This document shows, piece by piece, positions 1,586-25,912 of a stretch of 28,729 bases of DNA (position 1 is the stretch's first letter; each line of letters starts with the position of its first letter). Origin of the DNA: a virus; IMG/VR virus record IMGVR_UViG_3300017739_003779, positions 1-28,729 of that record. One strand, 5' to 3'. The notes under the pieces were generated by a model. It worked only from the letters and a program-made list of their open reading frames with translations. It was not told the DNA's origin and ran no database searches. The translations under genes were made by a program, and so were the position numbers.

Positions 1586-1978
1586 TTAATTTTTAAATAA
1601 CTTTAACTTTTTACAAACGTTGTATACTTGTAAAGGTGTTTTTGCTTTATATCTTTTACCAGTATCTTTATCTTCTATATACTGTTGTTCATCCTTAATT
1701 TTAGCTCCATTAACAAACCAAAATATTACTTCAGCTACTTTTTCATCATAATATTCATATACTAGATCCTCTATTACTTGAAAATATAAATCCTCATACA
1801 TTATAAGATTTAAACCATATTCCGAAAAAACTTTATCTGTTCGTTCCTGTATTGAAACTAATCTATTTACTAAGTGAATAAAAAATTTTTTATGCTTACT
1901 TTCTATCTTTTTGGGATTTTCTTTTATTTGAAGTTTTAATCCTCCGATAGTAATAGACTTTTTATTTTTATCTTTCAT
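1586..1978 (-). CDS. Conserved-looking phage protein, 130 aa, function unknown
   Basis: A soluble, probably helical protein. A basic N-terminus (MKDKNKKSITIGG) leads into a helical core with two aromatic/acidic stretches, EDLYFQVIEDLVYEYYDE and AEVIFWFVNG, and it ends with a basic tail. No catalytic motif or membrane segment is visible. It overlaps the C-terminus of the upstream glycosyltransferase gene by 11 bases, so it is co-transcribed with the sugar cluster although its content looks like a phage core protein rather than a sugar enzyme. I do not recognise the family with certainty. Confidence 0.65.
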   Translation of the reverse strand: MKDKNKKSITIGGLKLQIKENPKKIESKHKKFFIHLVNRLVSIQERTDKVFSEYGLNLIMYEDLYFQVIEDLVYEYYDEKVAEVIFWFVNGAKIKDEQQYIEDKDTGKRYKAKTPLQVYNVCKKLKLFKN

Positions 1979-3191
1979 TTATTATTAAATTATTTTCATA
2001 AGTTTTTAGTTTATTAACTGTAATTTTTAAATTGCCTAATTCAAATTCTCCTATTTCACCACTATCCTGTATTATTTCTGATATCTGTTGTATTATAGAA
2101 TAATCCTGATTATTAAAAGTATTTCCATTTATTTTTATAAAAATATCTGTAGGTAAAAAGCCATTATTAGTGTAATCATTTAAATTACCTATAGTATTTA
2201 TTTTTTCTTTTAAATTAAAAGAAGTTTTTGGTTGTTCTAATTCTATATATTCTTGAAAATTATCATTTACATAGATTTTATCACACCAGGGTTCTAACAT
2301 CCCTAATAACTGTGTATTGGAATTATCTATAGAAATACCTATATTATATTTTGGTGGTACAATTGGTTTCATTAAAGCATCGTGTTTACAATAATGCCCC
2401 CATTTACGTAGAAACTCTCTAGTTGATCTTTGGTTTTGAGCTAACCATTCATCTGTTTCTCTATTTTTCATAAATACTTCACCATTAGGATTTCGTGTAG
2501 CTCCATCTGCAAATCTTGAACCCCTACAAGTCATATGATAAACAAATCCCTCCCATGTTTGTATAAACTTAATTCCATTTAAGTGGAATCTATTAAATAT
2601 GTCCGTATCTTCTTTAGATTGGGGTGCAAATATTTCATCATGCCCCCCTATTTCTTGAAAATCTTTTTTCCAAAATGCCCAAGGTGCAAATATGCCCTCC
2701 GTTATTTTACCCTTTGATTTTAATCTACCTAGTTGAGTAAGTAAAATATCTTCATTAAACTCTTCAGGTTCAATGCCACAATCTAATAATATCTTTTCTG
2801 GTCCATCTGGGTGTAATGGTGGTTCAATTCTAGTAAGTGATACTATAGTTTTCTCTTTTAATTCTTTCTCAATTGAATCCAAAGCATAGGGGCATAAGTA
2901 CATATCAGCATGATAAATCATACAAATATCATTTGTAGCTACTTCATTCACTAGAGTATCATATAATATAGTATGACCTAAACGTGTGGGTCCTTCATTT
3001 CTAATTGCCCTAAATAATGGATCTTTTTCCATCATTTCCCGACACCACCCCCAAGTATCATCTTTATTGCTAAAATCATCAGCTACACAAATTTCTACTT
3101 TATGGTTACCTTGATTTCTACGAATTGAATCATATGACCATTTTAAATATTTAAGATTATTTCTACTAGGCTGTATTAAGGATATTTTCAT
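1968..3191 (-). CDS. Family 2-type glycosyltransferase with extra C-terminal domain
   Basis: The first 230 or so residues read as a GT-A family 2 enzyme: MKISLIQPSRNNLKYL at the start, an acidic pair in ICVADDFS (D38/D39), and YHADMY (residues 93-98) where the metal-binding DxD normally sits. EDTDIFNRF further on is the usual acceptor-side ED motif, here EDTD. The expected reaction is transfer of a sugar from a nucleotide-sugar with inversion; donor and acceptor are unknown. Residues about 270-407 form an unassigned domain. This is the last gene of the glycan cluster and its start overlaps the stop of the gene at 3191-4147 by one base. Confidence 0.75.
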   Translation of the reverse strand: MKISLIQPSRNNLKYLKWSYDSIRRNQGNHKVEICVADDFSNKDDTWGWCREMMEKDPLFRAIRNEGPTRLGHTILYDTLVNEVATNDICMIYHADMYLCPYALDSIEKELKEKTIVSLTRIEPPLHPDGPEKILLDCGIEPEEFNEDILLTQLGRLKSKGKITEGIFAPWAFWKKDFQEIGGHDEIFAPQSKEDTDIFNRFHLNGIKFIQTWEGFVYHMTCRGSRFADGATRNPNGEVFMKNRETDEWLAQNQRSTREFLRKWGHYCKHDALMKPIVPPKYNIGISIDNSNTQLLGMLEPWCDKIYVNDNFQEYIELEQPKTSFNLKEKINTIGNLNDYTNNGFLPTDIFIKINGNTFNNQDYSIIQQISEIIQDSGEIGEFELGNLKITVNKLKTYENNLIINER

Positions 3192-4147
3192 TAAAATGTA
3201 TTTTTTATAGTGTTAATAAATGTTTTATAGTTAGAAATGTTATGGGGAAAAGTTTTTTGAATATCTTCAACTAAAATAATATTATTATTAGATAAATTTC
3301 TATAATATGAATCTTTGCTAAAATAATCTTTACGACTTTCTACCCCTCTAGAAAGCCACATAATACTATCTCCCCCAAAATAGCTAGTTAATATTCCAGC
3401 ACCTCCTATATAGCTTATAAATTTATTACAATTAGCATATAACATACATTGTAATTCATTAAATTCTAAATCACTATTTTGAGATAATATATCCTCAAAT
3501 AAAATAACATTTTCAAAATACTTCGTTAACTCGTAATCATTTAGTAAACCTATTCCCTCAACTATAGCCTCAATATTAATTTGGTTGGGTAGAGTATTTA
3601 ATTCATTTTGATCCTGAGTTGGAAGATTATTACATAGAGGTCTATGGTAAATAATTTTATAATTTTTTTCAGTTAAATAAGTAAAAATTTCGTATAAGCA
3701 TTCTATGCTAAAATATCTTAAACTATGAGTATTAGAATGAGGTTGGTATGAATTATTTATTATAATATATTCTTTATTAAATTTAAATCTGTTATTTTTA
3801 TATTGATCTTTTAATGGAGGAGGTGTCCATTTACTATAATCTAAAACTCCATTTGCCTTATTTTGTTTTTCTTTAGTAAGTTCTCCATAACTTTGTCCAA
3901 ACATAGCCATAGCATTATGGTGTAACCAATCATTAGGTAAAGAGGATAAATTGGCAGCTTCATTGCTAATTGTTCTTATATTATATTTTTCTTCTACATT
4001 ATCGCAAAAATAATAAAAAGGTTTCATTCCTTTACTAGTAATAACCTTTTCTAACTTATTATTTTGATATAGCCAATAAGCATAAGGAACACTTAAAACT
4101 AACTCTATTCCAAACTCGGGATTAGTATCTACTACTATTTTATTCAT
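3191..4147 (-). CDS. Probable GT-B-like glycosyltransferase, 318 aa
   Basis: No textbook motif is present, so the assignment rests on overall character and context. The N-terminus (KIVVDTNPEFGIELVLSV) resembles the opening strand and helix of GT-B enzymes that begin with an EFG(W/Y)E-like stretch, as also seen in the gene at 18453-19460. The C-terminal third has LYANCNKFISYIGGAGILTSY, a strand-turn-helix reminiscent of the donor-binding half of GT-B folds. It is embedded between a GT2 gene and the formyltransferase, with an 8-base overlap to the latter. It has no membrane segment. It could instead be a non-catalytic relative. Confidence 0.5.
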   Translation of the reverse strand: MNKIVVDTNPEFGIELVLSVPYAYWLYQNNKLEKVITSKGMKPFYYFCDNVEEKYNIRTISNEAANLSSLPNDWLHHNAMAMFGQSYGELTKEKQNKANGVLDYSKWTPPPLKDQYKNNRFKFNKEYIIINNSYQPHSNTHSLRYFSIECLYEIFTYLTEKNYKIIYHRPLCNNLPTQDQNELNTLPNQINIEAIVEGIGLLNDYELTKYFENVILFEDILSQNSDLEFNELQCMLYANCNKFISYIGGAGILTSYFGGDSIMWLSRGVESRKDYFSKDSYYRNLSNNNIILVEDIQKTFPHNISNYKTFINTIKNTF

Positions 4148-4802
4148 TAATATAGGATTTAGTTATATATAATTTACTACCATCTTTAAACTCTATATAA
4201 GCATTGGGATAGGGATCTTGTAAACATCTTATTTTATTATAAAAATATTCGGCATTTTTATCTTCTAAATCCTTTAAAGTTATTTTACTTTCAACAGGTT
4301 TTCTTCTTTTGTAATAACTTGATTTTGAATTATCCTGTTTTATACCCTTAAGATTAGGTGAAAAATTTTGTATTAAATCCCTAGTTAATTTTACTCCTAA
4401 AATAATTATTCTATCAAATATATCATTTAAATCCCCCTCTAAAGAAAATTCTTCTTGATAGAGTATATTTCCTGTATCTATACCTTCATCCATTTTAAAC
4501 AAAGTTACAGCACTTTTATTTTCACCATTTATTATTTGATTCTGGATTGGACTTCCTCCCCTGTACTTAGGTAGTGGTGAAGGATGTAACATAACTGAAA
4601 AATAGTTTAATAAAAAATCATCCTTTATTATCCAACTCCAACCATACCAAAGAATTAAAGTAGGATTAAAATTTTTAATTTTTTTATTAGTTAATTCTTC
4701 CCTTGAACTAATTATTAAAAATTCATAATTATTATATTCTTTTTCTATAATATTATAAATTTGTTTAGCCCAATCACGGTATCCACAACATAATATTTTC
4801 AT
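4140..4802 (-). CDS. Formyltransferase (sugar N-formyltransferase-like)
   Basis: The core HPSPLPKYRGGSPIQNQI (residues 73-90) and MDEGIDTGNIL (104-114) are the hallmark of the methionyl-tRNA/sugar N-formyltransferase catalytic domain, which moves a formyl group from N10-formyl-tetrahydrofolate to an amine. His73 and Asp109 of the usual Asn-His-Asp triad are present, but the Asn position two residues before the His is Met71. At 220 aa it is shorter than Fmt (about 315) and lacks room for the full C-terminal tRNA-binding domain, so an amino-sugar substrate is more likely than Met-tRNA. It overlaps the deacetylase gene upstream by ATGA, implying tight coupling. Confidence 0.8.
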   Translation of the reverse strand: MKILCCGYRDWAKQIYNIIEKEYNNYEFLIISSREELTNKKIKNFNPTLILWYGWSWIIKDDFLLNYFSVMLHPSPLPKYRGGSPIQNQIINGENKSAVTLFKMDEGIDTGNILYQEEFSLEGDLNDIFDRIIILGVKLTRDLIQNFSPNLKGIKQDNSKSSYYKRRKPVESKITLKDLEDKNAEYFYNKIRCLQDPYPNAYIEFKDGSKLYITKSYINE

Positions 4803-5473
4803 ATAGTTTTTCTTATTAGTTTAAAGGCTTCAGCATATTTGTTTCCTGATTGCATCCCTCTTTGTTCTGCTTGAATTGTTATTCCTTTTTTATTTCTAGG
4901 AAAAGGCCAAGGTCTTTCCTCTGATATAAAACATTTCATTGCCTTACATTTATTATTAATATCTTCTAGGGATAAATTGAAAAAAACATTAGGTAAAAAA
5001 GATGTCCTAAACCCCCATTCAGAACTACTTAATACTTCATAAGCATAAACCTGTTTTACAGTACCACTTGGTCTAGTAGCTATAATAGTAGCATTATGTA
5101 CCTTTCTATGATCCATATTACTATCACTATGCCAATGAGTAAATATTGTATCAGGTTTAAAATTATTAATTTCTTTTTCAATAATTTTATTTATTTCTAT
5201 TTGGGGGATAATATCTAATCTTCCACAAGGTAAATTATAAAATTCATATTTATCTACACCTATAATTTCTAATGCCTCTTTAGCATAACTATTTCTAATA
5301 GTTATTTCTTTTTCCGCATCAGGTTCATATGTAGGATTACTAAATCTACAAGTAGTACCCTCTGCAATAAAAACTACTTTAAATTTAACTTTATTACGAA
5401 ATCTATTCATAATACCCCCACAACCTAGTATATCATCATCTGGGTGAGCTGCTATTATTAAGGCTTTTTTCAT
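4799..5473 (-). CDS. PIG-L/LmbE-family N-deacetylase
   Basis: IIAAHPDDD at residues 6-14 is the family signature (usually AHPDDE), giving zinc ligands His10 and Asp13 and the probable general base Asp12. The second metal motif is THWHSDSNMDH (112-122), ending with His122. Members such as MshB, PIG-L and BshB remove an acetyl group from N-acetylglucosamine in small molecules or lipid-linked sugars. It shares ATGA overlaps with both neighbours: the dehydratase gene before it and the formyltransferase gene after it. The order suggests that it exposes an amine that the formyltransferase then caps. The family call is firm; the substrate is inference. Confidence 0.87.
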   Translation of the reverse strand: MKKALIIAAHPDDDILGCGGIMNRFRNKVKFKVVFIAEGTTCRFSNPTYEPDAEKEITIRNSYAKEALEIIGVDKYEFYNLPCGRLDIIPQIEINKIIEKEINNFKPDTIFTHWHSDSNMDHRKVHNATIIATRPSGTVKQVYAYEVLSSSEWGFRTSFLPNVFFNLSLEDINNKCKAMKCFISEERPWPFPRNKKGITIQAEQRGMQSGNKYAEAFKLIRKTI

Positions 5474-6417
5474 AATACCTTATTTTCTTTTAAGAATTCA
5501 TAAACTTCATTGTCAGGCATAAGGGAATCAAAACTATTATAAGATTTAAATTCTGAGGTTACAATATTATCAGTTATTAAATAATTCTCTTTTAAATTAA
5601 TAGTTTTAGTCCATTCCACCTCGGAAATCATTGCTTCATGTAATTTTTCACCCGGACGTATTCCTACAACATTTAGGTTTCCTTTTATATTTTTCCATTT
5701 GAATAAAGCCTCGGCTATAGAAGGTATACTAAAGGATTTTACTTTAGGAACACATATACACCCATGGGTGTCATTATTATAAGCAAAATCAATTAAATCT
5801 GTTGCTTTTTCTAAAGATAATAAAAATCTGGTCATTCTCATATCAGTAATAGGAAGAGAAGTGGATCCATTATTTAATAAATTTTTAAAAAATGGAATTA
5901 CTGAACCAGTAGATTCTAAAACATTACCATATCTAACTAAACAAACCTTAATTTTATTTTGTTGTTTAGCATAATCAATATATAACCTTTCAGAAATAGC
6001 CTTACACATCCCATACACATTTATAGGAGAACATGCTTTATCTGTACTTATAAACATTAAAGTTTCTATTTGATGATTACTACATTTAACAGATTGTATT
6101 AAATGTTGATGACCTAATATATTTACATTTACAGATTCAAAAGGGTTTAATTCACAAATAGGAACATGTTTTAAAGCTGCAGTATTAATGATTATGTGGG
6201 GTTTATAATCCTCTATAGAATTTCTTATACTATTAATATCTTTTACATCTCCTATTTTAAAACTTAAATTTTTATGGTTATATTTTTTTTCTAGATTAAC
6301 ATGTTTATGTTCATCTCTACTTAAAACCATAATAAAATTATTTTTAATATAACGTGAAATTAAGGTTTGTCCAAGAGCCCCGGTACCACCTATAATTAAT
6401 ATTTTTTTATTTTTCAT
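5470..6417 (-). CDS. PseB/CapD-like nucleotide-sugar 4,6-dehydratase
   Basis: An extended short-chain dehydrogenase. The NAD(P) loop is IIGGTGALGQ (GxxGxxG at 10-16). The catalytic section FISTDKACSPINVYGMCKA contains D126, K127, Y135 and K139 with the same spacing as in PseB (D132, K133, Y141, K145). NxxALKHVP, VRYGNVLESTGSV and IRPGEKLHE are also typical. The likely reaction is conversion of UDP-GlcNAc to a 4-keto-6-deoxy HexNAc, with or without C5 inversion. At 315 residues it is close to soluble PseB (about 333) and lacks the membrane half of CapD/FlaA1-type proteins. It overlaps the gene before it by 11 bases and the deacetylase by 4. Confidence 0.85.
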   Translation of the reverse strand: MKNKKILIIGGTGALGQTLISRYIKNNFIMVLSRDEHKHVNLEKKYNHKNLSFKIGDVKDINSIRNSIEDYKPHIIINTAALKHVPICELNPFESVNVNILGHQHLIQSVKCSNHQIETLMFISTDKACSPINVYGMCKAISERLYIDYAKQQNKIKVCLVRYGNVLESTGSVIPFFKNLLNNGSTSLPITDMRMTRFLLSLEKATDLIDFAYNNDTHGCICVPKVKSFSIPSIAEALFKWKNIKGNLNVVGIRPGEKLHEAMISEVEWTKTINLKENYLITDNIVTSEFKSYNSFDSLMPDNEVYEFLKENKVL

Positions 6418-7363
6418 ATTCTAAAATTATTTTATCCCATATAGTTTTATAAACTGATTCATGAAAATATTTTTTATACAACTTTTTTGATTTATTGCTA
6501 CAATGTACGTAAAATTCTTTATTTTTCCTAAGTTTTTTTACTAATTCTTTTCCTTTTTTTATGTCACTAGGTTCAATAGATAAATCAGGAAAACATAATT
6601 TTTGGGTATTAGTATCTATATTACCTATACAAGGTATACCTAAATAAGCACAATTTAAATGAAATGTTCCCCCTATTGTGTTAGGATTTAAATGTACAGC
6701 ATATTTAAACTGGCTTAACTTAATTATCCATTCATTCCATTGCATGTAGGGTAAATGGTTTATTTCCTCTAAACTTATTTCATCTTTTTCCATTCTACCC
6801 ATTTGTGGGGCATATATTTTTTCTCCTGATTCGTTTGCTACTATTAAGGAATTAAATCCTCCGTACCAACGAACTAAATTCCCCCCAATTATAGTTCCTT
6901 TTCTATTATCTATAGTAGTAAGTAAATTATTAGAAATAGGGTCTTCTATCATTAAAGTTGGATTTATAAAACATTTCTTTTCTAATAATCCCTCATAATA
7001 TCTTTTATCCTTATCATTATGGGCTAATGCAAAATCAGCATTTATCATTATATTAAAAAACCAAAACGATTGATTTAAAGGTAATGATTGAAAATACCAA
7101 GATGGGCCCTCTTGCATAAAAGCATATTTTTTACATACACGTTTTAATTCATTTACTATATCAAAACCCATAAAATTTTTAACGTTTTTTGGGATTATAA
7201 TTATTCCTAATTCACAATAATTATCCGGTAATTGTTTTAATTTAAGAATATTATGGTGAGTTGCATTCTGTGCTACCCACCAAGCATATTCCGTTCTCAT
7301 ATTAGGATGATTTCTTTTTATCTTTCCATCAAAATTCATTTCTGTTAACCAAACTATTTCCAT
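6407..7363 (-). CDS. Probable GT-B glycosyltransferase, 318 aa
   Basis: I place the start at the ATG at 7363 (MEIVWLTEMNFDG); an in-frame ATG at 7375 would add four residues and a longer overlap. Two Rossmann-like halves can be guessed: an N-terminal part with EYAWWVAQNATHH, and a C-terminal part with KYAVHLNPNTIGGTFHLNCAYLGIPCIGN, which resembles the donor-binding region of GT4-type enzymes, where a glycine-rich loop and a conserved acidic or hydrophobic helix follow. No ER membrane or secretion signals are seen. It overlaps the upstream gene by 10 bases. The family assignment is by overall character. Confidence 0.6.
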   Translation of the reverse strand: MEIVWLTEMNFDGKIKRNHPNMRTEYAWWVAQNATHHNILKLKQLPDNYCELGIIIIPKNVKNFMGFDIVNELKRVCKKYAFMQEGPSWYFQSLPLNQSFWFFNIMINADFALAHNDKDKRYYEGLLEKKCFINPTLMIEDPISNNLLTTIDNRKGTIIGGNLVRWYGGFNSLIVANESGEKIYAPQMGRMEKDEISLEEINHLPYMQWNEWIIKLSQFKYAVHLNPNTIGGTFHLNCAYLGIPCIGNIDTNTQKLCFPDLSIEPSDIKKGKELVKKLRKNKEFYVHCSNKSKKLYKKYFHESVYKTIWDKIILEYEK

Positions 7364-8301
7364 ACATCTTCCCATTTAAATGATTTATAATTAGGATTAA
7401 ATATATTATAACAATTTTGTTCACTCATTTTATTTGCTTTAACATACCAATCATTACTTCTTCTTTTTTGATTCATAGTACCATCTTTTCTTTCACCTTT
7501 TATATATTTTCTTTTATTTGGGTGATTTCTGTTATGTACTAATAAAATATTTTTTATGATATATTGTGGAATATTGCCTAATACCTGATTTGTCATATGC
7601 ATAAATGCAGTATCTTCATGTACAAAAAATACAGATTTTGGAATATTTACACCCGCTTTTATCACTTCGGAAGATATTACTAAACCACAACCATTAAATT
7701 TATGTTGTGGTGCTATTAATACCTCTAAATCTTCCGTTTTTTCATTAATTTTATCCATTTCCTCCTTAGTCATTGTGTACTTTAATGACCACCAATTATC
7801 GTAATCATTTTCAATAAAAGGCTTAACTGTAAAATCGGGGTGTTCTAATATTTCCCAACTTTTATCCCACATTTTACAAGTACCAAAAAAGGCTAAATAT
7901 TTAAAATTATTATTTTGTAATGATATCTTATGTAAATTATCTAATATATTAAATGTTTGTTTAGGTATTAATGCATCTGTTTCACCCCACATTAACACAT
8001 CAGCTAACTCACAATATTTTTCATTAAATTTTCTACGATAATCTGCTATAGTAACTAAATCATATGTAAATAACTTTAAAAATCTTCCATCCGAAAGTAA
8101 ATTTTTTATTTTAATTTGACAATCTTCATATTGTTTTTTACTAATACATTTTTCAAGATCCTGATTAGCACATACTAAAAAATCCACTATTACTTCACCA
8201 TTATATTCATCCAACGCTTGTTTTAAAGTCTCAATATATTCTCCAATGATATCACATTCATACCATTGTATTAAACACCCTATTGCAAATTTAGTTTTCA
8301 T
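7354..8301 (-). CDS. Putative GT-A-like glycosyltransferase, 315 aa
   Basis: The N-terminus (KFAIGCLIQWYECDIIGEYIETLKQAL) matches the first strand and helix of GT-A folds, and LMWGETDALIPKQ at about residues 103-115 sits where the metal-binding DxD would be (here ETD). A later stretch, FFVHEDTAFMH, offers an acidic pair like the ED of family 2 enzymes. The C-terminus is strongly basic (NRNHPNKRKYIKGERKDG). No named family is recognised, so this is a probable transferase rather than a certain one. It overlaps the fusion gene upstream by 11 bases. Confidence 0.5.
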   Translation of the reverse strand: MKTKFAIGCLIQWYECDIIGEYIETLKQALDEYNGEVIVDFLVCANQDLEKCISKKQYEDCQIKIKNLLSDGRFLKLFTYDLVTIADYRRKFNEKYCELADVLMWGETDALIPKQTFNILDNLHKISLQNNNFKYLAFFGTCKMWDKSWEILEHPDFTVKPFIENDYDNWWSLKYTMTKEEMDKINEKTEDLEVLIAPQHKFNGCGLVISSEVIKAGVNIPKSVFFVHEDTAFMHMTNQVLGNIPQYIIKNILLVHNRNHPNKRKYIKGERKDGTMNQKRRSNDWYVKANKMSEQNCYNIFNPNYKSFKWEDVWK

Positions 8302-10042
8302 TTATTAAGTTTACGATTTTTTCTGCAGCTTCAACACAATTCCCAACTTTACCACTAAATAAAATAAAATTATTACCCATTTTATTTACTATAGTAGGTC
8401 TCTCATCAGTCTTATCTTTATTAGGTAGTACCGTTCTTATAGTATACATAGAACCTATGTGTTTAGAACTTTCTATTTCCGGAAAAAACTTTTTAGCTGA
8501 TTCTATAAATCTATTTACATTTGTATATTTAGGTTTTTTTATAATATCCTTATTTATATATTTTTTATAAACCGTTGGTATTTCAGGTTTATTTCCCACA
8601 TTACGAATATGAATAGCATGAACTACATTTCCAGCTAAATGATAATCAGTATCTGCTAGGGGATCAAAACACATAAAAGGTCCATCCATTATTACCATAC
8701 TTTTATTTTTATACTTATTGGGAAGTTTAAATATGGGTTTTTCACAAAGTTCAAATTGGTATTCTTTTTTTTCTAGAGCTAAATCATTTAATGAAGCATA
8801 AGTAGCATATACTTTATATTTATATCCTTTTAACTCTTCCCTAACTTTAGTGTTTAAAATTAAATTTATACCATTTCCATAAATTCTTTCATTGCACATT
8901 TTTCTTAAAGTATTATGATTATAAAGTTTTTCATTTACCTTTATAGTAAGATTACATTCAGGTTGGGATTCTACTATTTCCCATTCTAACCCAGTTTTAT
9001 CTAAAATAGCCAAATATTTTTCTGGGGATGTTAAACTATCTTTAGTAGAAATGGAATAAAAGTGATCAATATTATTATTAACTATTGAACGGTGGTAATA
9101 TTTTATAAATGAAGGTTCATTATTTTTACATGACATTATTGTATCATAACTTCTAGGATAATGATATCCCCTATGAACCCTATATTGATTAATTCCCGAA
9201 GCTGCTTTCATAATATCACCTTCAGCCTCATATAAATCAACATTAAATCCTATAGTTTTTAGTTTAATAGCTGCTGTTACTCCATATATTCCTCCTCCTA
9301 CAACAGCACATTTTCCATATATTTTACTTTTTATTTCTTCACTTAATTCAGTAGCAAATAAACTTCTTTTTAAATTTAAATTAAAATCAACTTTTTCTTG
9401 AAATACTAAATTTAACATGCAATATAAAGCATCTTCTTTATATTGGGGTTCTATATTATGAATTTTTTCTTTATACCAATTAAAATCATATTCAAAATTA
9501 TAACTAATATGTTTTATGCCATAACTATCATAAGAAGTATCTAAAAAATCTATTTTAAATGATTTATAATTTGTAGTGTTTTTTATAATTTGTATTTCTT
9601 TTGACTTAATATGTTTAACTCTATCGTATATTAGATAAAAATGATGATAGGCCATTCTATCTATAATATTAACCCCCAAACCACCCCATTTTTTATAAAT
9701 AAAATTATTAGTAGATTTAATATTTTCATAGATTAAAACGTCATCAATGTAAAAATTTAAATTATTTTTTTTAGATATTTGTATAAGTTCCTTTAAAGAT
9801 TTAGAACATAAAGTACCAGGTTTTTCACAAAAAACATTAGTATTATTTTCCAAAAAATACTTAGCCTGTTCATAATGAAATTCGTTAGGAGATGCTATTA
9901 TAGCCCAATCTACTTTATTTTGTTTCCACCATTTATCCTGTGAACCACAAATCCACCTAATAGAAACATTATCTATTCTTTTTAATTTCAATAAAATTTT
10001 TTTACCAAAACTACCCTTACCTATTTGACCTATTTTAATCAT
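8291..10042 (-). CDS. Fusion: Gfo/Idh/MocA dehydrogenase + FAD-dependent (DAO-type) oxidoreductase
   Basis: The start is placed at the ATG at 10042, which begins the Rossmann strand directly (MIKIGQIGKGSFGKK); the ATG at 10087 would add 15 residues and overlap the previous gene more. Residues 1 to about 235 are a Gfo/Idh/MocA enzyme: GQIGKG (5-10), WAIIASPNEFHYEQA, and FCEKPGT with Glu73-Lys74-Pro75. From about 244 a second dinucleotide fold begins, VVGGGIYGVTAA (GGGxxG at 249-254) with Glu272 placed to hold FAD ribose, then a motif near 285-298 ending GYHYPRS. The C-terminal FSGKVGNCVEAAE is typical of the DAO superfamily. Both halves look intact. Each family oxidises or reduces sugar or amino-sugar carbons; the shared substrate is unknown. 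Confidence 0.82.
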   Translation of the reverse strand: MIKIGQIGKGSFGKKILLKLKRIDNVSIRWICGSQDKWWKQNKVDWAIIASPNEFHYEQAKYFLENNTNVFCEKPGTLCSKSLKELIQISKKNNLNFYIDDVLIYENIKSTNNFIYKKWGGLGVNIIDRMAYHHFYLIYDRVKHIKSKEIQIIKNTTNYKSFKIDFLDTSYDSYGIKHISYNFEYDFNWYKEKIHNIEPQYKEDALYCMLNLVFQEKVDFNLNLKRSLFATELSEEIKSKIYGKCAVVGGGIYGVTAAIKLKTIGFNVDLYEAEGDIMKAASGINQYRVHRGYHYPRSYDTIMSCKNNEPSFIKYYHRSIVNNNIDHFYSISTKDSLTSPEKYLAILDKTGLEWEIVESQPECNLTIKVNEKLYNHNTLRKMCNERIYGNGINLILNTKVREELKGYKYKVYATYASLNDLALEKKEYQFELCEKPIFKLPNKYKNKSMVIMDGPFMCFDPLADTDYHLAGNVVHAIHIRNVGNKPEIPTVYKKYINKDIIKKPKYTNVNRFIESAKKFFPEIESSKHIGSMYTIRTVLPNKDKTDERPTIVNKMGNNFILFSGKVGNCVEAAEKIVNLINEN

Positions 10043-10781
10043 AAAGATATTTGTAAGTTTTTTCCATCCAATGCCCGGGTTTTCCATATTCTTTTGGGAT
10101 AGTATTAAAATGATAAATCCACCCCACTTTAGTCATTGTAAATTGATCATCTAATATTTCTTTTCTTAATAAATCGCACATATTATACTCATAGGGTAAA
10201 AATGTATGTTTTATATTTTTTTGCCTTAGGAAATAATTAAATACTGGTTGGCAAGTGCCAACATGATAAGTTTCCTGCAGAGAAATTATTAACTCCCGGT
10301 GTTTTTGATAAAAATCAATAAATTCCCTTAAAAATTTTTTATGGGATTTATTAAATATAATAAAGCCTGTATTAATATATTCCCAAAAATTAAATGGTAT
10401 AGGATTATCACTAAACATATGTTTATGATAATTTTCCATACTTCTTATAACCCAATCATAACATCCCTCATTATGTACCACTGTTAAATCATTATTAGTT
10501 TTTTTAAAAAAATTAGGGGTATCGGGATGAATAATTGTATCAGCATCAACCATTAATACCTGGTCATATTTAATTTCACTATATTCTAAAATTTCCAATA
10601 CATGGTATCTTTGCCATGTAATTTTCATATCTTTAATGGGGCATAATAATTGATCCATTACTATTAGATTACAATTATTTTTATTACACCATTTTTTCCA
10701 ACTATTAATAGAATATTGATATGGACTGTTTCTACCATCCCCTGCATCTATACAGGGAAGAAATACAATATTTTTTTTCAT
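10035..10781 (-). CDS. GT-A glycosyltransferase with DxD (paralogue of 13751-14545)
   Basis: YDQVLMVDADTIIHPDTPNF puts a clear DxD (D79, D81) at the end of a strand, the manganese/nucleotide-sugar site of GT-A enzymes such as GT8 and GT34. Upstream, SINSWKKWC and KITWQRYHVLEILE form the donor-base pocket; FNFWEYINTGFIIFNKSHKK is the NTGF acceptor-side motif common in retaining GT-A enzymes. The C-terminal GWIYHFNTIPKEYGKPGHWM fits the final His ligand region. Length 248 is that of a single catalytic domain. The ATG overlaps the previous stop (ATGA), and its stop lies within the start of the fusion gene. Confidence 0.78.
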   Translation of the reverse strand: MKKNIVFLPCIDAGDGRNSPYQYSINSWKKWCNKNNCNLIVMDQLLCPIKDMKITWQRYHVLEILEYSEIKYDQVLMVDADTIIHPDTPNFFKKTNNDLTVVHNEGCYDWVIRSMENYHKHMFSDNPIPFNFWEYINTGFIIFNKSHKKFLREFIDFYQKHRELIISLQETYHVGTCQPVFNYFLRQKNIKHTFLPYEYNMCDLLRKEILDDQFTMTKVGWIYHFNTIPKEYGKPGHWMEKTYKYLYD

Positions 10782-12345: not shown

Positions 12346-12355
12346 AATTTAATTT

Positions 12356-15360: not shown

Positions 15361-15375
15361 AACATAAAAAACGAT

Positions 15376-16107: not shown

Positions 16108-16110
16108 ATT

Positions 16111-17256: not shown

Positions 17257-17265
17257 TTTATTTTT

Positions 17266-18429
17266 TTATAGTTTTTTAAATTTTTTAATAGATTCAATTA
17301 CATAATTTACATCCTTTTTTGATAAACTTTGATGTAATGGTAAATTTAAAGTATAGCGAGCAGCCCATTCTGCCTTTGGTAAATTAATATTAGTATTATA
17401 ATACTTTACCCAATGCAAAGGATAATATCTAAAAGTAGTATATATATTTCTATCTCTTAAAAATTTAGCTAATTTATTTCTATTTTTTTCTTTTTTTACT
17501 TGTATATAATACATATAATATGAACTTGTAATAGATGAATTAAATGGTTTTGGTGTATTTAACCAATCCAAATCTTTTAAACCCTCATTATAAGCATTAT
17601 GAATTGATTTTCTTATATTAAGAAATTTATTAACTTTTTTCAATTGTTCTAATCCAACTGAAGCCGACAAGTCATTCATTGTAGATTTTGAGCCTGGAGA
17701 TTCCACATCAAATTCCCACCATTTATTATCAACAGGGTTAGTGGATCCACTAGATTTTAAACCTAAATAAGTATTATATTTTATTTGTTGAAGAATTTTT
17801 TTATCCTTACAATAAATCATCCCCCCATCTCCTGTTGTAATTATTTTCATTGGATCAAATGACCATAAACCTATATCTCCAAAAGTACCAGTATTTTTTT
17901 CTTTAACTTTAGAAAAAGGACTACTAGCATTATCCTCTATTAAAATAATATGATTTTTTTTACAAAATGTTGATATTCTTTCTATATCACAAGGTACTCC
18001 GGCATAATGTAAAACTATAATAGCAGTAGTTTTACCCGTAATACATTTTTCTATATCCTCAAGTGTGGGATTTAAGGTATTAGGATCCACATCACAAAAT
18101 ATAGGAGTTGCATTTGCTGATATTACAGCATTAGCAGCCGCAACAAAACTAATAGTAGGCATTATTACTTCATCCCCTTCTTTTACATATACTTTAATTG
18201 CTTGAAATAAAGCTTCAGAACAACATGATATTGTTGTCATTTCTTCGGGATCAGCATATTCAAAATTTATCTTATTTATTTTTTTAACTACTAGTTTTTT
18301 AGAAAAACGTTTTACAAATTCATCTTGTTTATTTCCATTTCTCCCATACCCCAACCAGTTAGATTTAAATACTTGTCCTACGGCACTTAATTCTTCTTTT
18401 CCTAATGATGGTTGGTAAATATTTATCAT
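17266..18429 (-). CDS. DegT/DnrJ/StrS PLP-dependent sugar aminotransferase
   Basis: Standard family features are present: ISCCSEALFQAIK near the start, GDEVIMPTISFVAAANAVI (85-103), LHYAGVPCDI, IEDNASSPFS with Asp166 for the pyridine nitrogen, and SFDPMKIITTGDGGM (190-204) with Lys195 as the PLP Schiff-base lysine. Its length of 387 is normal. It would transfer an amino group, usually from glutamate, to the keto carbon of a 3- or 4-keto NDP-sugar, such as the product of the 4,6-dehydratase at 5470-6417. It precedes the His-type paralogue by nine bases, so a true aminotransferase and a dehydratase are made side by side. Confidence 0.88.
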   Translation of the reverse strand: MINIYQPSLGKEELSAVGQVFKSNWLGYGRNGNKQDEFVKRFSKKLVVKKINKINFEYADPEEMTTISCCSEALFQAIKVYVKEGDEVIMPTISFVAAANAVISANATPIFCDVDPNTLNPTLEDIEKCITGKTTAIIVLHYAGVPCDIERISTFCKKNHIILIEDNASSPFSKVKEKNTGTFGDIGLWSFDPMKIITTGDGGMIYCKDKKILQQIKYNTYLGLKSSGSTNPVDNKWWEFDVESPGSKSTMNDLSASVGLEQLKKVNKFLNIRKSIHNAYNEGLKDLDWLNTPKPFNSSITSSYYMYYIQVKKEKNRNKLAKFLRDRNIYTTFRYYPLHWVKYYNTNINLPKAEWAARYTLNLPLHQSLSKKDVNYVIESIKKFKKL

Positions 18430-18452
18430 GTAATGAATATAATAAAAAATTA

Positions 18453-19460
18453 TTAACTTTCCAAATTATTTAAATAATCTTTTACCCAATTTATAAATAA
18501 ATCCATGTTATCTTGAGAATAAATTAATTGTTCATATACTATGGGTAACATTTGTCCCCCAAATTTAAATACATTTTTATTCCAAAAATTAATTGGGGCT
18601 TGGGGCATATTTAAAATATCTTGTGGAGAGATTATAATCACATTTTTACCAACAAAAGGTGGGATATATAAATGACTTCTAAAGTCTCCTTCTGTAAAAA
18701 ATATACAGGCTTCAGCATTTTTAATTAATGAAACTTGATCATTAAAATTATCACATGAAATTATTTCAAACCTTTTATCATCAAATTTTGAAAAACTATC
18801 ATCTTTCTTCCCAGTATTGAAATCTAATAATAAGATTTTAATTTTTAATAATTTTAAGCTATCTAAAATTTTAGAATAATCAATTTTTACTTTAGATCTT
18901 TGAACATGAGTTCTCCAGGCTGTTTGAAGTAATATATAAGGTTCTTTTATTTGTCTGGGAGAATCAAAGTTACAAAGTTTTATAAAAACATTATTATTTA
19001 AATCTAAATAATTATGATGAATTTTGTATATTCCATTTTTAAAACCATTGGGTAAATAATGACCTGTACCAAAATTTACTCCATCAATTGAATTTTTATC
19101 ACTACTAAAAATCCATTTAAATTCTTTAATATTTGGAAACTTTTTTTTAAAAAAATCTTTTATATCATTCTCTATTTTATAAGTTCCATTTTCACAACAT
19201 TTAATATTAAAGTTTTGGTTTTCATAACAAATTTTACAAATACTAGTAGTTCCCCCACCTATACTATTTTTAAATGACTTAATGTTGGATATATCCAAAT
19301 AGTAGTCAGCAAACTCATAAATGTGTTCTAATCCTTTTCTAGAGCAGATGAATATTTTATCTTTTGATTGTTTATATTCTTTTACCCATTTTCTAATATT
19401 ACCCTGCCATTGAAATAATTCATAACCAAATTCTCCAGTATATGCAAATACATAGTTCAT
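18453..19460 (-). CDS. Probable GT-B-like glycosyltransferase, 335 aa
   Basis: It opens with YTGEFGYELFQWQGNIRKW, a start that recurs in poorly studied sugar transferases of surface-polysaccharide loci and is distantly echoed in the gene at 3191-4147. The C-terminal half has QVSLIKNAEACIFFTEGDFRSHLYIPPFVGKNVIIISP, a strand-helix arrangement like the donor-binding domain of GT-B enzymes, with SHLYIPPF as the probable nucleotide-sugar loop. Four cysteines at about residues 75-90 (CKIC, KCC) could form a small metal site or be structural. No catalytic residue can be named with confidence. Confidence 0.5.
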   Translation of the reverse strand: MNYVFAYTGEFGYELFQWQGNIRKWVKEYKQSKDKIFICSRKGLEHIYEFADYYLDISNIKSFKNSIGGGTTSICKICYENQNFNIKCCENGTYKIENDIKDFFKKKFPNIKEFKWIFSSDKNSIDGVNFGTGHYLPNGFKNGIYKIHHNYLDLNNNVFIKLCNFDSPRQIKEPYILLQTAWRTHVQRSKVKIDYSKILDSLKLLKIKILLLDFNTGKKDDSFSKFDDKRFEIISCDNFNDQVSLIKNAEACIFFTEGDFRSHLYIPPFVGKNVIIISPQDILNMPQAPINFWNKNVFKFGGQMLPIVYEQLIYSQDNMDLFINWVKDYLNNLES

Positions 19461-19466
19461 TTAAGT

Positions 19467-20426
19467 TTATTTTGAAATATTTAATATTATTTGTCTAATA
19501 GCATCATATGAATAAATTTTACATAATTTACTATAAGCATCTTGTATTATTAATTCTCTATAGTCTTTATCTAATATTATTTTTTCCATTTCTAATTCTA
19601 GTTTTTTTATATCTAGAGTATTAGTTGAGGGGTATAAATAACTATTAGCATCATTATTTCCTCCAAACATTATAGTACCTGTAGATGGACATAATGTACT
19701 TTGTTGGCCATAACTTGTAGTAGGATCCATATTAACCATAAATAAACATTTACTCCAAGATTCTATATGGATTTTTAATTGATCATTACCATGTATTCTA
19801 TGATCTGTATATTTTTCAAATATTGGGATGTTAAATTTATTAGATAAATGTGCAGCTATTTCCTTTGTATTAGCATTTCTATGTGTTTGATGATGTTGAT
19901 AGCAAAATATTGAAAGAGTTTTATCAACATAATAATTATCTTGTAAATAGTCTATATTTACGGGTTGAGGAATCCAATGTAATTTTTTACTTGATAAAAG
20001 TTGAAATTCTTTACTAATAGGATTATTTAAGCTCATTGGGGTAGATACAGCATCTGCTTCATTAAAAAGCTTTTTTCTAAATTCTGCATTATTAGTTTTA
20101 CTATTATCCCCAATACTTAACATTTCTTTAACTGAGGCTATTATAAAGGCATTTGGGAACTTTTTTCTTAAAATAGAAATAGTAACTTCTTTAATATTAT
20201 CATTAGCAAACATTATGATATCTAAATCCTCATTTATAAGATGTAAATCAGATATATTTAAATAATATCCATCAAATAAAAAAGGATAATTCCAAAATCC
20301 CATAAAAAACTCATTCCCTATACTATGGCTATAACTGTATGGCTGCCCCTCTAAAGTATAAGCCTTACCATTAACAACCTTATAACTTTTAACAACAAAT
20401 GCTTGACTTATTAATGCAAATTTCAT
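19467..20426 (-). CDS. Probable GT-B glycosyltransferase, 319 aa
   Basis: The N-terminal part (KFALISQAFVVKSYKVVNG) is a plausible acceptor-side Rossmann start. IIMFANDNIKEVTISILRKKFPNAFIIAS and ADAVSTPMSLNNPISKEF resemble the inter-strand segments seen before the donor domain of GT4-like proteins. The final third, KCLFMVNMDPTTSYGQQ then CPSTGTIMFGGN, and a C-terminal helix with YRELIIQDAYSKLCKIYSYDAI, matches the donor-binding half and the closing helix. The EX7E motif of GT4 is not visible. The gene is coupled by ATGA to the upstream gene. Confidence 0.55.
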   Translation of the reverse strand: MKFALISQAFVVKSYKVVNGKAYTLEGQPYSYSHSIGNEFFMGFWNYPFLFDGYYLNISDLHLINEDLDIIMFANDNIKEVTISILRKKFPNAFIIASVKEMLSIGDNSKTNNAEFRKKLFNEADAVSTPMSLNNPISKEFQLLSSKKLHWIPQPVNIDYLQDNYYVDKTLSIFCYQHHQTHRNANTKEIAAHLSNKFNIPIFEKYTDHRIHGNDQLKIHIESWSKCLFMVNMDPTTSYGQQSTLCPSTGTIMFGGNNDANSYLYPSTNTLDIKKLELEMEKIILDKDYRELIIQDAYSKLCKIYSYDAIRQIILNISK

Positions 20427-21463
20427 AATTCCGTTTCTACTGTGTTTAAATCTTTTAAAATATTATAAGTATGTAATACTAGTTTTTCGGGGTTATATTC
20501 TTCTATTAATAATTTTCTTGCATTTTCTGTCAAATAAGGTTGTAATTCTTTAAAATTTGATAAAACATAATCAACCTTTTCTTCCAAATCACTAAAATCA
20601 TCTTTACAAGCTATATAAGTTTTATCTTCTATATACATGTTTGGAGTTGTATTGACCCAGTCTATTTTGGGTTTTATTAAAATTGAACCAAATTGATGTG
20701 CTTGAACATCACGTGGTGCACCGTATGCCCCAAACCCATAAGGAGAAAAAATAATTTTTGAATTATACATATTTTGCATATATTCCTGCTCAGAAACTCT
20801 TTTACCATTTACAAGTTTGCAAGCACTATATTTTAAGTTATTAATTAAATCATAAACGGGTTTTCTACCTTTATTATAGTAGGGGGTTTGACAAAGTCCA
20901 TGTTCATATACTTCTTTTTTTAATGGATATTGAAACATCCCACATAAATCATATTTTTTATTACTATCGTAATTATAAAATTGAAATTGACCGTTTGGAA
21001 AAAAAGTATTGCCCCAATTTGTTCCTGATAGTTTCATTTTAGATTTTAAAGTATTGATATCAGAAACTTTATAATCCCCTCTGCCCCAATACATTCTACC
21101 GTTGACCCATCCTTTTTTATATAAGTTAAAATCATTTAAGTAAACTGTTTTTAAAAATAAAAGAGCATTAGATTCTCTAAAAACATCAATAGTACCCATT
21201 AAACTTGTAGAATCTTGTCCATCAAAAATAAAATAATCCCCCGTTATCTTTGATAAAAATTCTAATCCTTTATTAATAGATTTCTTTAGTGATACTTTTT
21301 TATCAATAATGCTAGCTTGACCTACAAAAGCATAATCATAATCTAAAGAATCTAAAGTAAATTCTATTCCTATCTGTTTAAAAATTTCTTTATTAACCCA
21401 ATAGTAACGAAATGTTGTTTCATTACGATGAAGTTGATAGTCTAATAATTTTATTTTTATCAT
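20423..21463 (-). CDS. Probable GT-B glycosyltransferase (exostosin-like C-terminal half)
   Basis: The recognisable part is near residues 230-300: EYMQNMYNSKIIFSPYGFGAYGAPRDVQAHQFGSILI, where a strand, glycine-rich loop and Arg/Asp before a helix match the donor site of exostosin-type and related group 1 transferases. The tail (LEEKVDYVLSNFKELQPYLTENARKLLIEEYNPEKL) is the usual closing helical region. The N-terminal half has no familiar motif but keeps FDGQDS after a strand. It is soluble. The gene overlaps those before and after it by ATGA, within the block of four consecutive transferase or methyltransferase genes. Confidence 0.6.
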   Translation of the reverse strand: MIKIKLLDYQLHRNETTFRYYWVNKEIFKQIGIEFTLDSLDYDYAFVGQASIIDKKVSLKKSINKGLEFLSKITGDYFIFDGQDSTSLMGTIDVFRESNALLFLKTVYLNDFNLYKKGWVNGRMYWGRGDYKVSDINTLKSKMKLSGTNWGNTFFPNGQFQFYNYDSNKKYDLCGMFQYPLKKEVYEHGLCQTPYYNKGRKPVYDLINNLKYSACKLVNGKRVSEQEYMQNMYNSKIIFSPYGFGAYGAPRDVQAHQFGSILIKPKIDWVNTTPNMYIEDKTYIACKDDFSDLEEKVDYVLSNFKELQPYLTENARKLLIEEYNPEKLVLHTYNILKDLNTVETEL

Positions 21464-22053
21464 CTTTTAATACCCCAAAACATTAAATCGCAATGATTTT
21501 TTTCTACTTCAAATTCATATAAACTAAAAACTTTATCAATATCACAAAAAGATCTTATATCTTTTTCCGTTACATTTTTGTAATATTCATTGTCCCAATT
21601 TTCTTTTTTTACGTTAGGCATAGTTTTCCATTCTACAATTTTATTGCCCTGAGAAGTTCTGCCTCTGGATTTATCAATTGCATCCTGAGATAAAGTCCCA
21701 TGGATTGGCCTTCCTGTTGTAGCACAAGTCCATATGAAATACCCTCCAGATTTTAACATTCTTATTGCATTTTGTATACTTTCTTTATAAAAGGGATTAT
21801 GTTCCCAACACTCACAAGATATTATAGTATCAAAAGTTTCATTAGGTGCATTATATTCATTAGCAGGGCATGCTATATCCACACCCGGACCCGGAAGTAA
21901 ATCCAGCCCTGTAAAATCACAATTATCGAACCAGGGTTTTTCGTTTCCATTAACATCAAATGATCCAATATCTAAAACTTTTACATTTTTAAAAGCTTGG
22001 GGAAATTTTAGTTTTATCCTATCTAAATAATCCTTTTGTTCCTTATGAGCCAT
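21460..22053 (-). CDS. Class I SAM-dependent methyltransferase (Methyltransf_11-like)
   Basis: VKVLDIGSFDVNGNEKPWF (24-42) is motif I with the glycine region, FTGLDLLPGPGVDI is strand 2 ending in the SAM-ribose-binding Asp, FDTIISCECWEHNPFYKESI is the D-x-[I]-[I]-x-C-x-E-x-x-E-H motif of Methyltransf_11, and MLKSGGYFIWTCAT is motif III. In sugar clusters such enzymes usually methylate a glycan hydroxyl or the chain end, which can stop elongation. Length 197 is that of a minimal catalytic domain. Tight spacing to GT2 (one base) and to the GT-B gene (ATGA overlap) ties its use to chain building. Confidence 0.8.
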   Translation of the reverse strand: MAHKEQKDYLDRIKLKFPQAFKNVKVLDIGSFDVNGNEKPWFDNCDFTGLDLLPGPGVDIACPANEYNAPNETFDTIISCECWEHNPFYKESIQNAIRMLKSGGYFIWTCATTGRPIHGTLSQDAIDKSRGRTSQGNKIVEWKTMPNVKKENWDNEYYKNVTEKDIRSFCDIDKVFSLYEFEVEKNHCDLMFWGIKR

Positions 22054-22054
22054 A

Positions 22055-22678: not shown

Positions 22679-22681
22679 GTT

Positions 22682-23143
22682 TTAACTAGGTAATACCCCA
22701 ATATACGAAAGAGCATCCATAAAATCACGTTCCTTAAAGTGTTTTACAGTTGTCATATCCATTCTAAATTCATAAAATTGCCCTTCTTTTTTAGGAATAG
22801 GGTATTTATGTTTTTCTTCTTCTTTAACTTCTACTGCCTTAACTGCTGCCCAAGCCCAATTTTTAGTTGTAGATCCATCTGCAAATATCATTCCTTGTTT
22901 TGGTAAATTTACGGTTGAGGGAAACCATATTTGGCCATTTTTATCTTTATATTTAAGATCTTTATACAATTCAGGAAGAATTGACATTTGTTCTTCAGTT
23001 ATTTCTTCACCCTCCCTCATTAATGTATTGGATTGAAACCCACAACCGTAACAAAAATAATTGTTTATATCCTGGTTTACTTCAGTTACATAGCATGCAT
23101 CTGAATCACATCTAGGACATATATCTAATTTATCTGCGCTCAT
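22682..23143 (-). CDS. Zinc-finger protein of unknown function, 153 aa
   Basis: C9-x2-C12 (CPRC) and C31-x2-C34 (CYGC), separated by 18 residues, form a zinc ribbon; C17 may be a fifth cysteine outside it. After the ribbon an acidic linker (EGEEITEEQ) leads to a domain of about 90 residues containing GQIWFPSTVNLPKQGMIFADG and WAWAAVKAVEV, with no recognised enzyme motif. It has no sugar-enzyme character yet sits between GT4 and GT2 genes with an ATGA overlap upstream. Similar ribbon-plus-domain proteins occur in phage genomes as uncharacterised proteins. The function is open. Confidence 0.7.
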   Translation of the reverse strand: MSADKLDICPRCDSDACYVTEVNQDINNYFCYGCGFQSNTLMREGEEITEEQMSILPELYKDLKYKDKNGQIWFPSTVNLPKQGMIFADGSTTKNWAWAAVKAVEVKEEEKHKYPIPKKEGQFYEFRMDMTTVKHFKERDFMDALSYIGVLPS

Positions 23144-24465: not shown

Positions 24466-24466
24466 A

Positions 24467-25912
24467 TTAATATATTAAATTATGTGTTTGCATTTTTCTA
24501 ACTTCTTCATCTGTATCTATTACTTCAAAGGCTTCTCTAGATTCCCAAGTATTAAATAATTCATCTATTGCCTCTATTACTCTATTAGACATTTTTTCAG
24601 CAGTAAATCCTATTTCATCACTAATTGACCATTCTCTTCCCCTAAGGCCTAATTCTTTTCTTTTTTCTCTTCCTAAATCATATACTTCTTTTATTCTATC
24701 GGCTGCATCTTCAGGCCTACATCTATCATCCCAAATATAAGGTGTAACAGGAGAACCTTGAATTGATCTTGAAGCTGGATAAACTGGAAAAGCCCAATCA
24801 CCATGTAGTTTATATTTTCCAGTGTTATTGGAAGGTATTTCTGGTGAAGGGGTAAACCATTCCCCATTTTCATCTTCAAATCCCATTTGATCCTGCATGC
24901 CTCCAGTAACATTAGCTATAATAGGTGTTCCTGCTAACATAGCTTCCGTTAATGTTAATCCCCACCCCTCATTTGAGGTTAAGAGAATTTGACAATCAAC
25001 CATATTATATAGAGTATTTAGACCCTCCACTGGGAGTTTATTAGTTGAAAATTTAATAGCATTAGGATATTTTTTCGCAAAGAGTAATTCAACTACAACT
25101 TCCAAATTAGTTCCTGCTTCATGGCTTTTTTCAGTATGAAGTATAAACCTACATTTATCTGCTTTTTCTTTAGGTAAACCATCTAAAAACATTTTAAATG
25201 CCCATAAAGTATCAGGTATTTGTTTTCTTCTAATATTTCTGGAGTTAAAAAATAGTATAAAATCTACTTCATCTTTACCAAAAAAATCTAATTTCATTTT
25301 TTCTACTTTATCTAAATCCTCAGTAGTTTCAAAGGGGTAATAAAGTTTATGATTTAAACCATGAGGTACATATCTTATAATTTTATTTTTAGATTTTTCC
25401 CCTAAAACAATTTTATTAATATTTACTGTTTGTTTTGAAATTCCAAGTAAAGCATCACACGATTCATAAAAAGCTTTATTATATAAAGGAGCAGGATAAT
25501 CATCCCAAATATTAAGATATATAATTGGAAGTTCTTTTCTTATTTCATTTTCAAATCTAAATAACCAATCAAAATATCTGGGATCTGTAATAATAAATAA
25601 AGCATCAGGTTTTTCAATTTTTATTAATTGTCTTACTAATTCTTGGTTCCCATAACCATCAACAGGATATAAAATTATACTAGAATCACTTAACCCCGTT
25701 TGTTCATTAGTATGTTGGCTTAAATCAAATCTTTTACCTTTTTCTGGATGTTTTACTGCTCCTGCTATTTGAACCCAGTTAAAATGTTGTGCAGTGTGTA
25801 TAACCATTTCTTTTCCTACAGTAGCTACTCCTGAGGTTACTCTAATATCATCGCATATTAGTAGTATTTTCTTCCTTTTATCTTTAGGAAGATACTTAAA
25901 ATCCTTATTCAT
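24467..25912 (-). CDS. GT4-family glycosyltransferase, first gene of the glycan block
   Basis: KKILLICDDIRVTSGVATVGKEM (14-36) is the GT-B acceptor-domain start with the glycine loop. LLGISKQTVNI and YVPHGLNHKLYYP match the linker region of GT4 enzymes (the VPHGxD-like stretch). ILFFNSRNIRRKQIPDTLWAF is the donor-domain entry. SNEGWGLTLTEAMLAGTPII contains EX7E (E315, E323). An insert of about 50 residues after it (FEDENGEWFTPSPEIPSNN and beyond) is longer than in most relatives. It sits 11 bases downstream of the ribbon-helix-helix gene and 1 base before the second GT4 gene, so the pair is probably translated together. Confidence 0.87.
   Translation of the reverse strand: MNKDFKYLPKDKRKKILLICDDIRVTSGVATVGKEMVIHTAQHFNWVQIAGAVKHPEKGKRFDLSQHTNEQTGLSDSSIILYPVDGYGNQELVRQLIKIEKPDALFIITDPRYFDWLFRFENEIRKELPIIYLNIWDDYPAPLYNKAFYESCDALLGISKQTVNINKIVLGEKSKNKIIRYVPHGLNHKLYYPFETTEDLDKVEKMKLDFFGKDEVDFILFFNSRNIRRKQIPDTLWAFKMFLDGLPKEKADKCRFILHTEKSHEAGTNLEVVVELLFAKKYPNAIKFSTNKLPVEGLNTLYNMVDCQILLTSNEGWGLTLTEAMLAGTPIIANVTGGMQDQMGFEDENGEWFTPSPEIPSNNTGKYKLHGDWAFPVYPASRSIQGSPVTPYIWDDRCRPEDAADRIKEVYDLGREKRKELGLRGREWSISDEIGFTAEKMSNRVIEAIDELFNTWESREAFEVIDTDEEVRKMQTHNLIY

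Follow-up and report, generated by a model that had tools for sequence, protein, structure and literature searches.

The question raised by this locus is what a long block of glycan-building genes, carried by a marine T4-like phage without any membrane part, is for. Since P-SSM2 it has been an open question what role large glycan clusters play in marine T4-like phages, and in a 2010 genome comparison it was unknown whether such clusters even function (PMC3037559). The block considered here lies in a 28,729-bp fragment, IMG/VR virus record IMGVR_UViG_3300017739_003779 (the window), where positions 1968-25912 are filled by 26 open reading frames (ORFs) of 134-598 amino acids (aa), which all lie on the minus strand, most of them with overlaps of a few bases. 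It very probably encodes a functional, soluble and modular glycan pathway, built of a fixed glycosyltransferase (GT) core and an exchangeable interior.

ORF calling and PHROG profiles confirmed the outline given in the initial annotation, a first reading of the letters which had placed 26 one-strand genes between phage genes of a T4-like virus. Coding density was about 100% across the enclosing 25,289-bp block, and the opposite strand held no non-overlapping ORF of at least 150 aa. One flank consists of a clamp loader (phrog_225) and a PD-(D/E)XK exonuclease (phrog_69), the other of an HNH endonuclease and a zinc-ribbon protein; a bacterial origin of the contig was also considered, and the contig is viral. 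The nearest named phage is Flavobacterium phage immuto (NC_055915), in which a syntenic block occupies 49-62 kb of the 160-kb genome, followed by Microcystis phage Mel-JY01 (PP395634). A capsid gene is absent within the window itself, and the Gp23 major capsid protein was found in immuto and Mel-JY01 as well as in each of the four IMG/VR relatives above 130 kb in length. Together with the syntenic flank, this makes immutovirus-like, T4-related myovirus a fair label.

Twenty-eight blocks reaching from the block's first gene to the HNH gene were compared, namely those of 26 contigs, immuto and the window, the last being the largest in a range of 9.4-25.3 kb. Common to all 28 were two genes of the GT4 type (GT4a and GT4b), the gene of a 153-aa protein, a small glycosyltransferase gene (GT2), and the zinc-ribbon and HNH genes. 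The interior is hypervariable and is replaced wholesale between close relatives. Clustering of the block ORFs at 35% identity gave 229 clusters, 153 of them singletons, and the window had between none and three of its 21 interior genes in common with any one relative; even G001, with an HNH gene 97% identical, had three in common. A Pfam search of 117 interior proteins of the relatives returned the same enzyme classes together with NeuB and cytidine monophosphate (CMP)-sugar synthetase. Constant flanks around exchangeable sugar and GT genes, as seen here, are the arrangement of a serotype locus. The order GT4a-GT4b-GT2 was also present in immuto, a phage of Flavobacterium, and in Mel-JY01, whose recorded host is a cyanobacterium.

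Some interior genes do not follow the flank in their relatedness. The gene at 16111 (genes are named here by their lower coordinate) was 76% identical to its counterpart in G013, against 65% for GT4a, so that here the interior gene of a distant relative is nearer than the flank. Homologues of 5470-6417 (73% aa identity) and 21460-22053 (65%) are carried by LR745206, a 634-kb uncultured phage (locus L180), in a co-directional ORF run with further glycan-gene homologues. This mismatch and the LR745206 homologues indicate that cassette genes have been swapped among phages, apparently across phage size classes. A search of genome contigs with genes 5470 and 16111 for bacterial donors gave no match. 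The cassettes of G008, G011 and G019 (loci L158, L160 and L168) have a run of clusters in common that resembles a CMP-nonulosonate pathway of the pseudaminic or legionaminic type.

On pairwise sequence comparison, the block genes are under purifying selection, the ratio of nonsynonymous to synonymous substitution rates (dN/dS) being 0.01-0.22 in close pairs, interior genes included. The E-x7-E motif of GT4a (E315/E323) and GT4b (E293/E301) and the DAD motif of GT2 (residues 90-92) were invariant in at least 27 of the 28 blocks. Non-functional glycan genes that fill the headful, an idea suggested for the lipopolysaccharide (LPS) clusters of cyanophages (PMC3037559), would account for the variable interior content and the range of block sizes. 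Such stuffer DNA is made highly improbable by the invariant motifs and low dN/dS, and agrees poorly with 26 of 26 frames open, nearly complete coding and a core kept in every block. No early or late timing signal was found: the late-promoter sequence TATAAATA occurred 10 times where 18 were expected, and a sigma-70 promoter scan stayed below chance.

The 153-aa core protein lies outside known families and adjoins GT4b in 77 of 79 testable loci. Its AlphaFold model, built with 52 relatives in the alignment, reached a predicted local distance difference test score (pLDDT) of 94 and a predicted template modelling score of 0.84, while folding from the single sequence gave a pLDDT of 35. A Foldseek search of the model against PDB gave no significant match (best E 0.74); a single viral homologue was significant, a protein of unknown function. 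The protein is therefore proposed, on the basis of the model, as a candidate new fold genetically linked to glycosyltransferases. Among its five cysteines C9 and C34 are invariant; C12 and C31 vary together, as Cys in 45 of 52 sequences and as Ser in seven, for which reason a strict zinc finger was rejected as a general feature. A profile search of the stretch of Mel-JY01 examined did not find the protein; this lineage thus probably added it to the GT4a-GT4b-GT2 core common to both.

For the interior enzymes, the initial annotation had been generous in its count of glycosyltransferases. Instead of 14, profiles back four to five: 24467, 23140 (weakly), 22055 and 1968, with 14542 as a sub-threshold GT-D candidate. 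The GT matches of 13751 and 20423 were at chance level, no informative family match was found for 3191, 7354, 10035, 10778, 18453 and 19467, and phmmer against PDB gave chance-level matches alone for 10035 and 20423. About eight interior proteins without an informative family are consequently putative glycosyltransferases by motif and context only. The isoelectric points of the glycosyltransferases were mixed and uninformative. Of the eight sugar-modifying genes proposed, seven proved to be profile-backed (4140, 4799, 5470, 8291, 12356, 16111 and 17266) and 15376 weak; of the two methyltransferases, 21460 was profile-backed and 11770 weakly so (E 0.05). For 8291-10087 and 10778-11800 the listed starts run into the upstream genes, and translation more likely begins at internal ATGs near 10042 and 11773.

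Since 17266 keeps the lysine that binds pyridoxal phosphate (PLP), it should be a transaminase, whereas 16111, with His at the PLP-lysine position, has the 3-dehydrases E1 and ColD as its closest matches. Judged by the families of its sugar enzymes, the block probably yields 3-deoxy, amino and N-formyl sugars. The closest PDB match of 17266 is TlmJ, which we take to be an antibiotic-biosynthesis aminotransferase, the entry itself saying aminotransferase alone. This match would suit a free or secreted small molecule (an antibiotic, signal or storage product) in place of a conjugate, but the block has no exporter and its GT-like genes are too numerous for a small product, which makes such a molecule very unlikely.

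A further possible substrate is the phage genome, whose modified bases the glycosyltransferases could glycosylate against restriction. Addition of several sugars to DNA by phage glycosyltransferases is on record (Pyle 2024, as cited in PMC12619734), and genes for a thymidylate synthase family protein occur in some relatives. Against this, PF00303, the family that includes hydroxymethylases, is missing in the block-bearing relatives G002, G008 and G009 (155-160 kb; the window genome is a fragment), and in immuto DNA modification of the 7-deazaguanine type, with DpdA, is encoded separately. Restriction evasion, moreover, needs neither up to a dozen sugar-modifying genes nor total cassette turnover, and DNA hypermodification looks unlikely. 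In immuto FolE, QueC, QueD, QueE, QueF and DpdA are encoded at 18.6-37 kb (L284), apart from the glycan block.

The absence of membrane parts bears directly on the target. Transmembrane segments were called by 19-residue Kyte-Doolittle hydropathy and not by DeepTMHMM; the same method gave nine spans for E. coli Wzx and six for Wzy. None was called in the 26 block proteins, where the highest 19-residue mean was 1.52, in globular enzymes, in agreement with the initial annotation, which had seen no multi-span protein. Profile searches of the window found no NTP_transferase, no Polysacc_synt_3 flippase and no Wzy_C, and an initiating transferase is likewise absent from the block. Nor was a flippase, polymerase or initiating transferase detected by family search in 13-20 relatives, which were mostly contigs: PF02397 was found in 0 of 13 relatives (the WecA family PF00953 not being searched), and Polysacc_synt_3 and Wzy_C each in 0 of 20 records (PF01943 and ABC families not being profile-searched). 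A screen of three relatives, near-complete as judged by length, for proteins of at least 200 aa with at least four predicted spans gave only the tape measure, a PrsW protease and a coiled-coil protein with four spans, none of which is a transporter of this kind. The PrsW-family intramembrane protease lies about 3.5 kb past the block in a 160-kb relative (L274:6000-6782), next to a 3-span protein which in G008 and G009 occupies the distal end of the block. The claim that activating enzymes are lacking holds for the window but not for the lineage: NTP_transferase was carried by two of the 20 records, both relatives, and the interior representatives of the relatives include four NeuB and four CTP_transf_3 (CMP-sugar synthetase) proteins. 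A membrane-less block is typical of phage clusters and not in itself surprising, as the P-SSM2 'LPS' cluster likewise has no transmembrane protein among its 15 genes.

These enzymes might nevertheless act at the inner membrane face on undecaprenol- or lipid-A-linked precursors, with the initiating transferase, flippase and polymerase supplied by the host, and thereby remodel the host surface to block superinfection or grazing. Such a change of O-antigen or capsule has been proposed for P-SSM2 and the pelagimyophages (PMC2984593, PMC7029224). The enzyme classes are those of O-antigen loci, constant flanks around a variable middle have the look of a serotype locus, the NeuB and CMP-sugar synthetase of the relatives are common in capsule loci, and the E. 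coli O-antigen glycosyltransferases WbbI and WbbK also have zero spans. However, the constant core spans phages of Bacteroidota and Cyanobacteria hosts, whose acceptors should differ, and among the 562 ORFs of the 28 blocks the only multi-span, membrane-anchored component was a 112-aa protein present in two copies near the distal flank. A lytic phage also has scant time for surface rebuilding, and the BASEL paper is sceptical about the use of a complete modification of the O-antigen in lytic infection (PMC11990801). Serotype conversion of the GtrABS kind works with multi-span GtrA and GtrS, and no multi-span protein is present in the block. Host-surface remodelling is a possible explanation, though less likely than not.

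The reading that we prefer, tentatively and with somewhat less than even confidence, is that the block is a phage 'glycotype' locus whose oligosaccharide is most likely destined for a virion protein. In the blocks compared, GT4a, GT4b, the 153-aa protein and GT2, usually with the distal GT2, frame a cassette of sugar-modifying enzymes and putative glycosyltransferases. The constant glycosyltransferases would prime a phage-encoded acceptor in the cytoplasm and assemble a common core from host nucleoside diphosphate (NDP)-sugars, and the 153-aa protein could assist them as an adaptor or acceptor-recognition factor. Rare sugars of the amino-deoxy, formylated, 3-deoxy and methylated kinds would then be made and attached by the swapped genes, so that each phage would display an outer glycan of its own. 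Since hosts of two phyla differ in their surface glycans, a conserved phage acceptor would be the simplest account of the constant core. As in virion glycosylation, the glycosyltransferases are soluble and virus-encoded, and in a PDB search the nearest solved structure to GT4a was B736L of chlorovirus NY-2A. Chloroviruses carry out the glycosylation of their capsid protein themselves, in the cytoplasm, and their glycans combine a conserved core with a virus-specific periphery (PMC9614988). The fuller form of this reading, the phage's own serotype system in which the GT core and the new-fold accessory protein put a stem on a virion protein and cassettes, also traded with 600-kb phages, give distinct coats, is held with clearly less confidence, as a possibility.

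Several observations weigh against a virion target. The B736L match spans only the common GT-B C-terminal domain, and the acceptor of B736L itself is not established (PMC9614988). Tail or capsid genes beside the block had been proposed as a sign to look for, but no head or tail gene is adjacent, Gp23 lies about 63-75 kb off (G002, G008 and immuto), and the neighbourhood does not favour virions. No recognisable oligosaccharyltransferase, Maf or SRRP-type protein-glycosylating enzyme was identified, and a phage that borrows the initiation and flippase machinery of its host would be just as free of membrane parts. The proposal of the initial annotation, that host NDP-sugars are placed on a soluble acceptor or host precursors are altered, survives these tests as a whole, its two halves not being separable by sequence alone. 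With the conserved core and an isolated close phage-host pair, immuto on Flavobacterium sp. LMO8, the question can be put to a direct test. Type-specific sugar coats would, if virions are the target, form a layer of phage diversity invisible to sequence surveys. The features of the window are listed in Table 1.

Table 1. Genes of the glycan block and its flanks in the window, with the matches on which their assignment is based.
Feature	Position	Strand	Evidence and occurrence
Clamp loader, flank	at 27860		phrog_225
PD-(D/E)XK nuclease, proximal flank	26160..27107	-	PF12705 8e-18; phrog_69
GT4a, constant GT4, 481 aa, first gene of block	24467..25912	-	PF00534 above cut-off; 28/28 blocks
GT4b, constant GT4-type, 441 aa	23140..24465	-	PHROG 2170 E 1.6e-16; weak PF00534; 28/28 blocks
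Constant 153-aa protein, outside known families	22682..23143	-	28/28 blocks
GT2, constant small glycosyltransferase, 207 aa	22055..22678	-	PF00535; 28/28 blocks
Methyltransferase	21460..22053	-	PF13489; 84% aa to G002; 65% aa to LR745206
GT-like at chance level	20423..21463	-	PF13524 E 0.15; no homologue in other blocks
Possibly GT-B-like	19467..20426	-	0 matches in family searches
ORF	18453..19460	-	No informative family; no phage match
DegT-family sugar aminotransferase, catalytic Lys kept	17266..18429	-	PF01041 4e-81; PDB TlmJ E 2e-94; motif MKIITTGDGG
NDP-4-keto-6-deoxysugar 3-dehydrase-like, His at PLP-Lys position	16111..17256	-	PF01041; PDB E1 dehydrase E 2e-57, ColD; SHVITAGG motif
RmlD-like NDP-sugar reductase, weak	15376..16107	-	PF04321 E 0.007
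Possible GT-D-fold glycosyltransferase	14542..15360	-	PF08759 E 0.0019, sub-cut-off
Putative GT, paralogue of 10035	13751..14545	-	Clusters with 10035; PF02709 E 0.02
134-aa protein	13350..13754	-	No Pfam match
GalE-like NAD-dependent sugar epimerase/dehydratase	12356..13360	-	PF01370 7e-44
Probable methyltransferase	11770..12345	-	PF13578 E 0.05
ORF	10778..11800	-	No Pfam match; likely start at internal ATG near 11773
Putative GT-A, VDADT motif	10035..10781	-	Motif in sequence; PHROG of unknown function
Gfo/Idh/MocA + FAD-dependent oxidoreductase fusion	8291..10087	-	PF01408 + PF01266; likely start near 10042
ORF kept in one relative	7354..8301	-	83% aa to G001
Putative GT-B	6407..7375	-	In 4 relatives; weak similarity to immuto mannosyltransferase
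UDP-GlcNAc 4,6-dehydratase-like (PseB/FnlA family)	5470..6417	-	PF02719 1e-76; PseB 4e-78 sub-cut-off; 73% aa to LR745206
PIG-L family N-deacetylase	4799..5473	-	PF02585 2e-22
Sugar N-formyltransferase-like	4140..4802	-	PF00551; PDB formyltransferases including sugar formyltransferases
Possibly GT-B-like	3191..4147	-	No informative family or phage match
Distal GT2, closes block	1968..3191	-	PF00535; ortholog in 16/28 blocks
130-aa distal-flank protein	1586..1978	-	21/28 blocks
Zn-ribbon protein, distal flank	1271..1582	-	28/28 blocks
HNH endonuclease, distal flank, anchor	624..1271	-	PHROG HNH; in 26/36 contigs

P-SSM2 is already a known case of a large 'LPS' cluster without membrane parts in a T4-like phage. 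Like the present block, the clusters of P-SSM2 and S-SSM7 combine one-strand glycosyltransferases, epimerases and a methyltransferase without export genes in a T4-like phage. The GT4a-GT4b-153 aa-GT2 core is not reported there, and the P-SSM2 stretches searched with the 153-aa profile gave no match. Those clusters come from few genomes and lie near hli03 or phoH (PMC3037559), whereas here a single position is filled, within a constant frame, in 28 blocks. Constant flanks, an exchangeable middle and the same enzyme classes are also found in the serotype loci for O-antigen and capsule of bacteria, but export there is by Wzx/Wzy or ABC systems, and nucleotidyltransferases are usually encoded as well. 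Closest to the window are immuto and Mel-JY01, with the same locus, core gene order and PD-(D/E)XK flank; their interior genes differ, and Mel-JY01 is without the 153-aa protein. To our knowledge, the glycan block of these two phages has not been described as a system.

For the preferred reading, a virion target, two precedents can be named. Phage glycosyltransferases modify virion proteins in mycobacteriophages (Freeman 2023, as cited in PMC12619734), although the cases reported there involve few glycosyltransferases, a proven target and no large cassette. The glycan gene sets of chloroviruses and mimiviruses belong to eukaryotic viruses with proven capsid or fibril glycans, and their glycosyltransferases are only distantly similar; like the block, however, they combine viral glycosyltransferases and rare-sugar enzymes in clusters of comparable size, with outer sugars that are virus- or clade-specific around a conserved core (PMC9614988).

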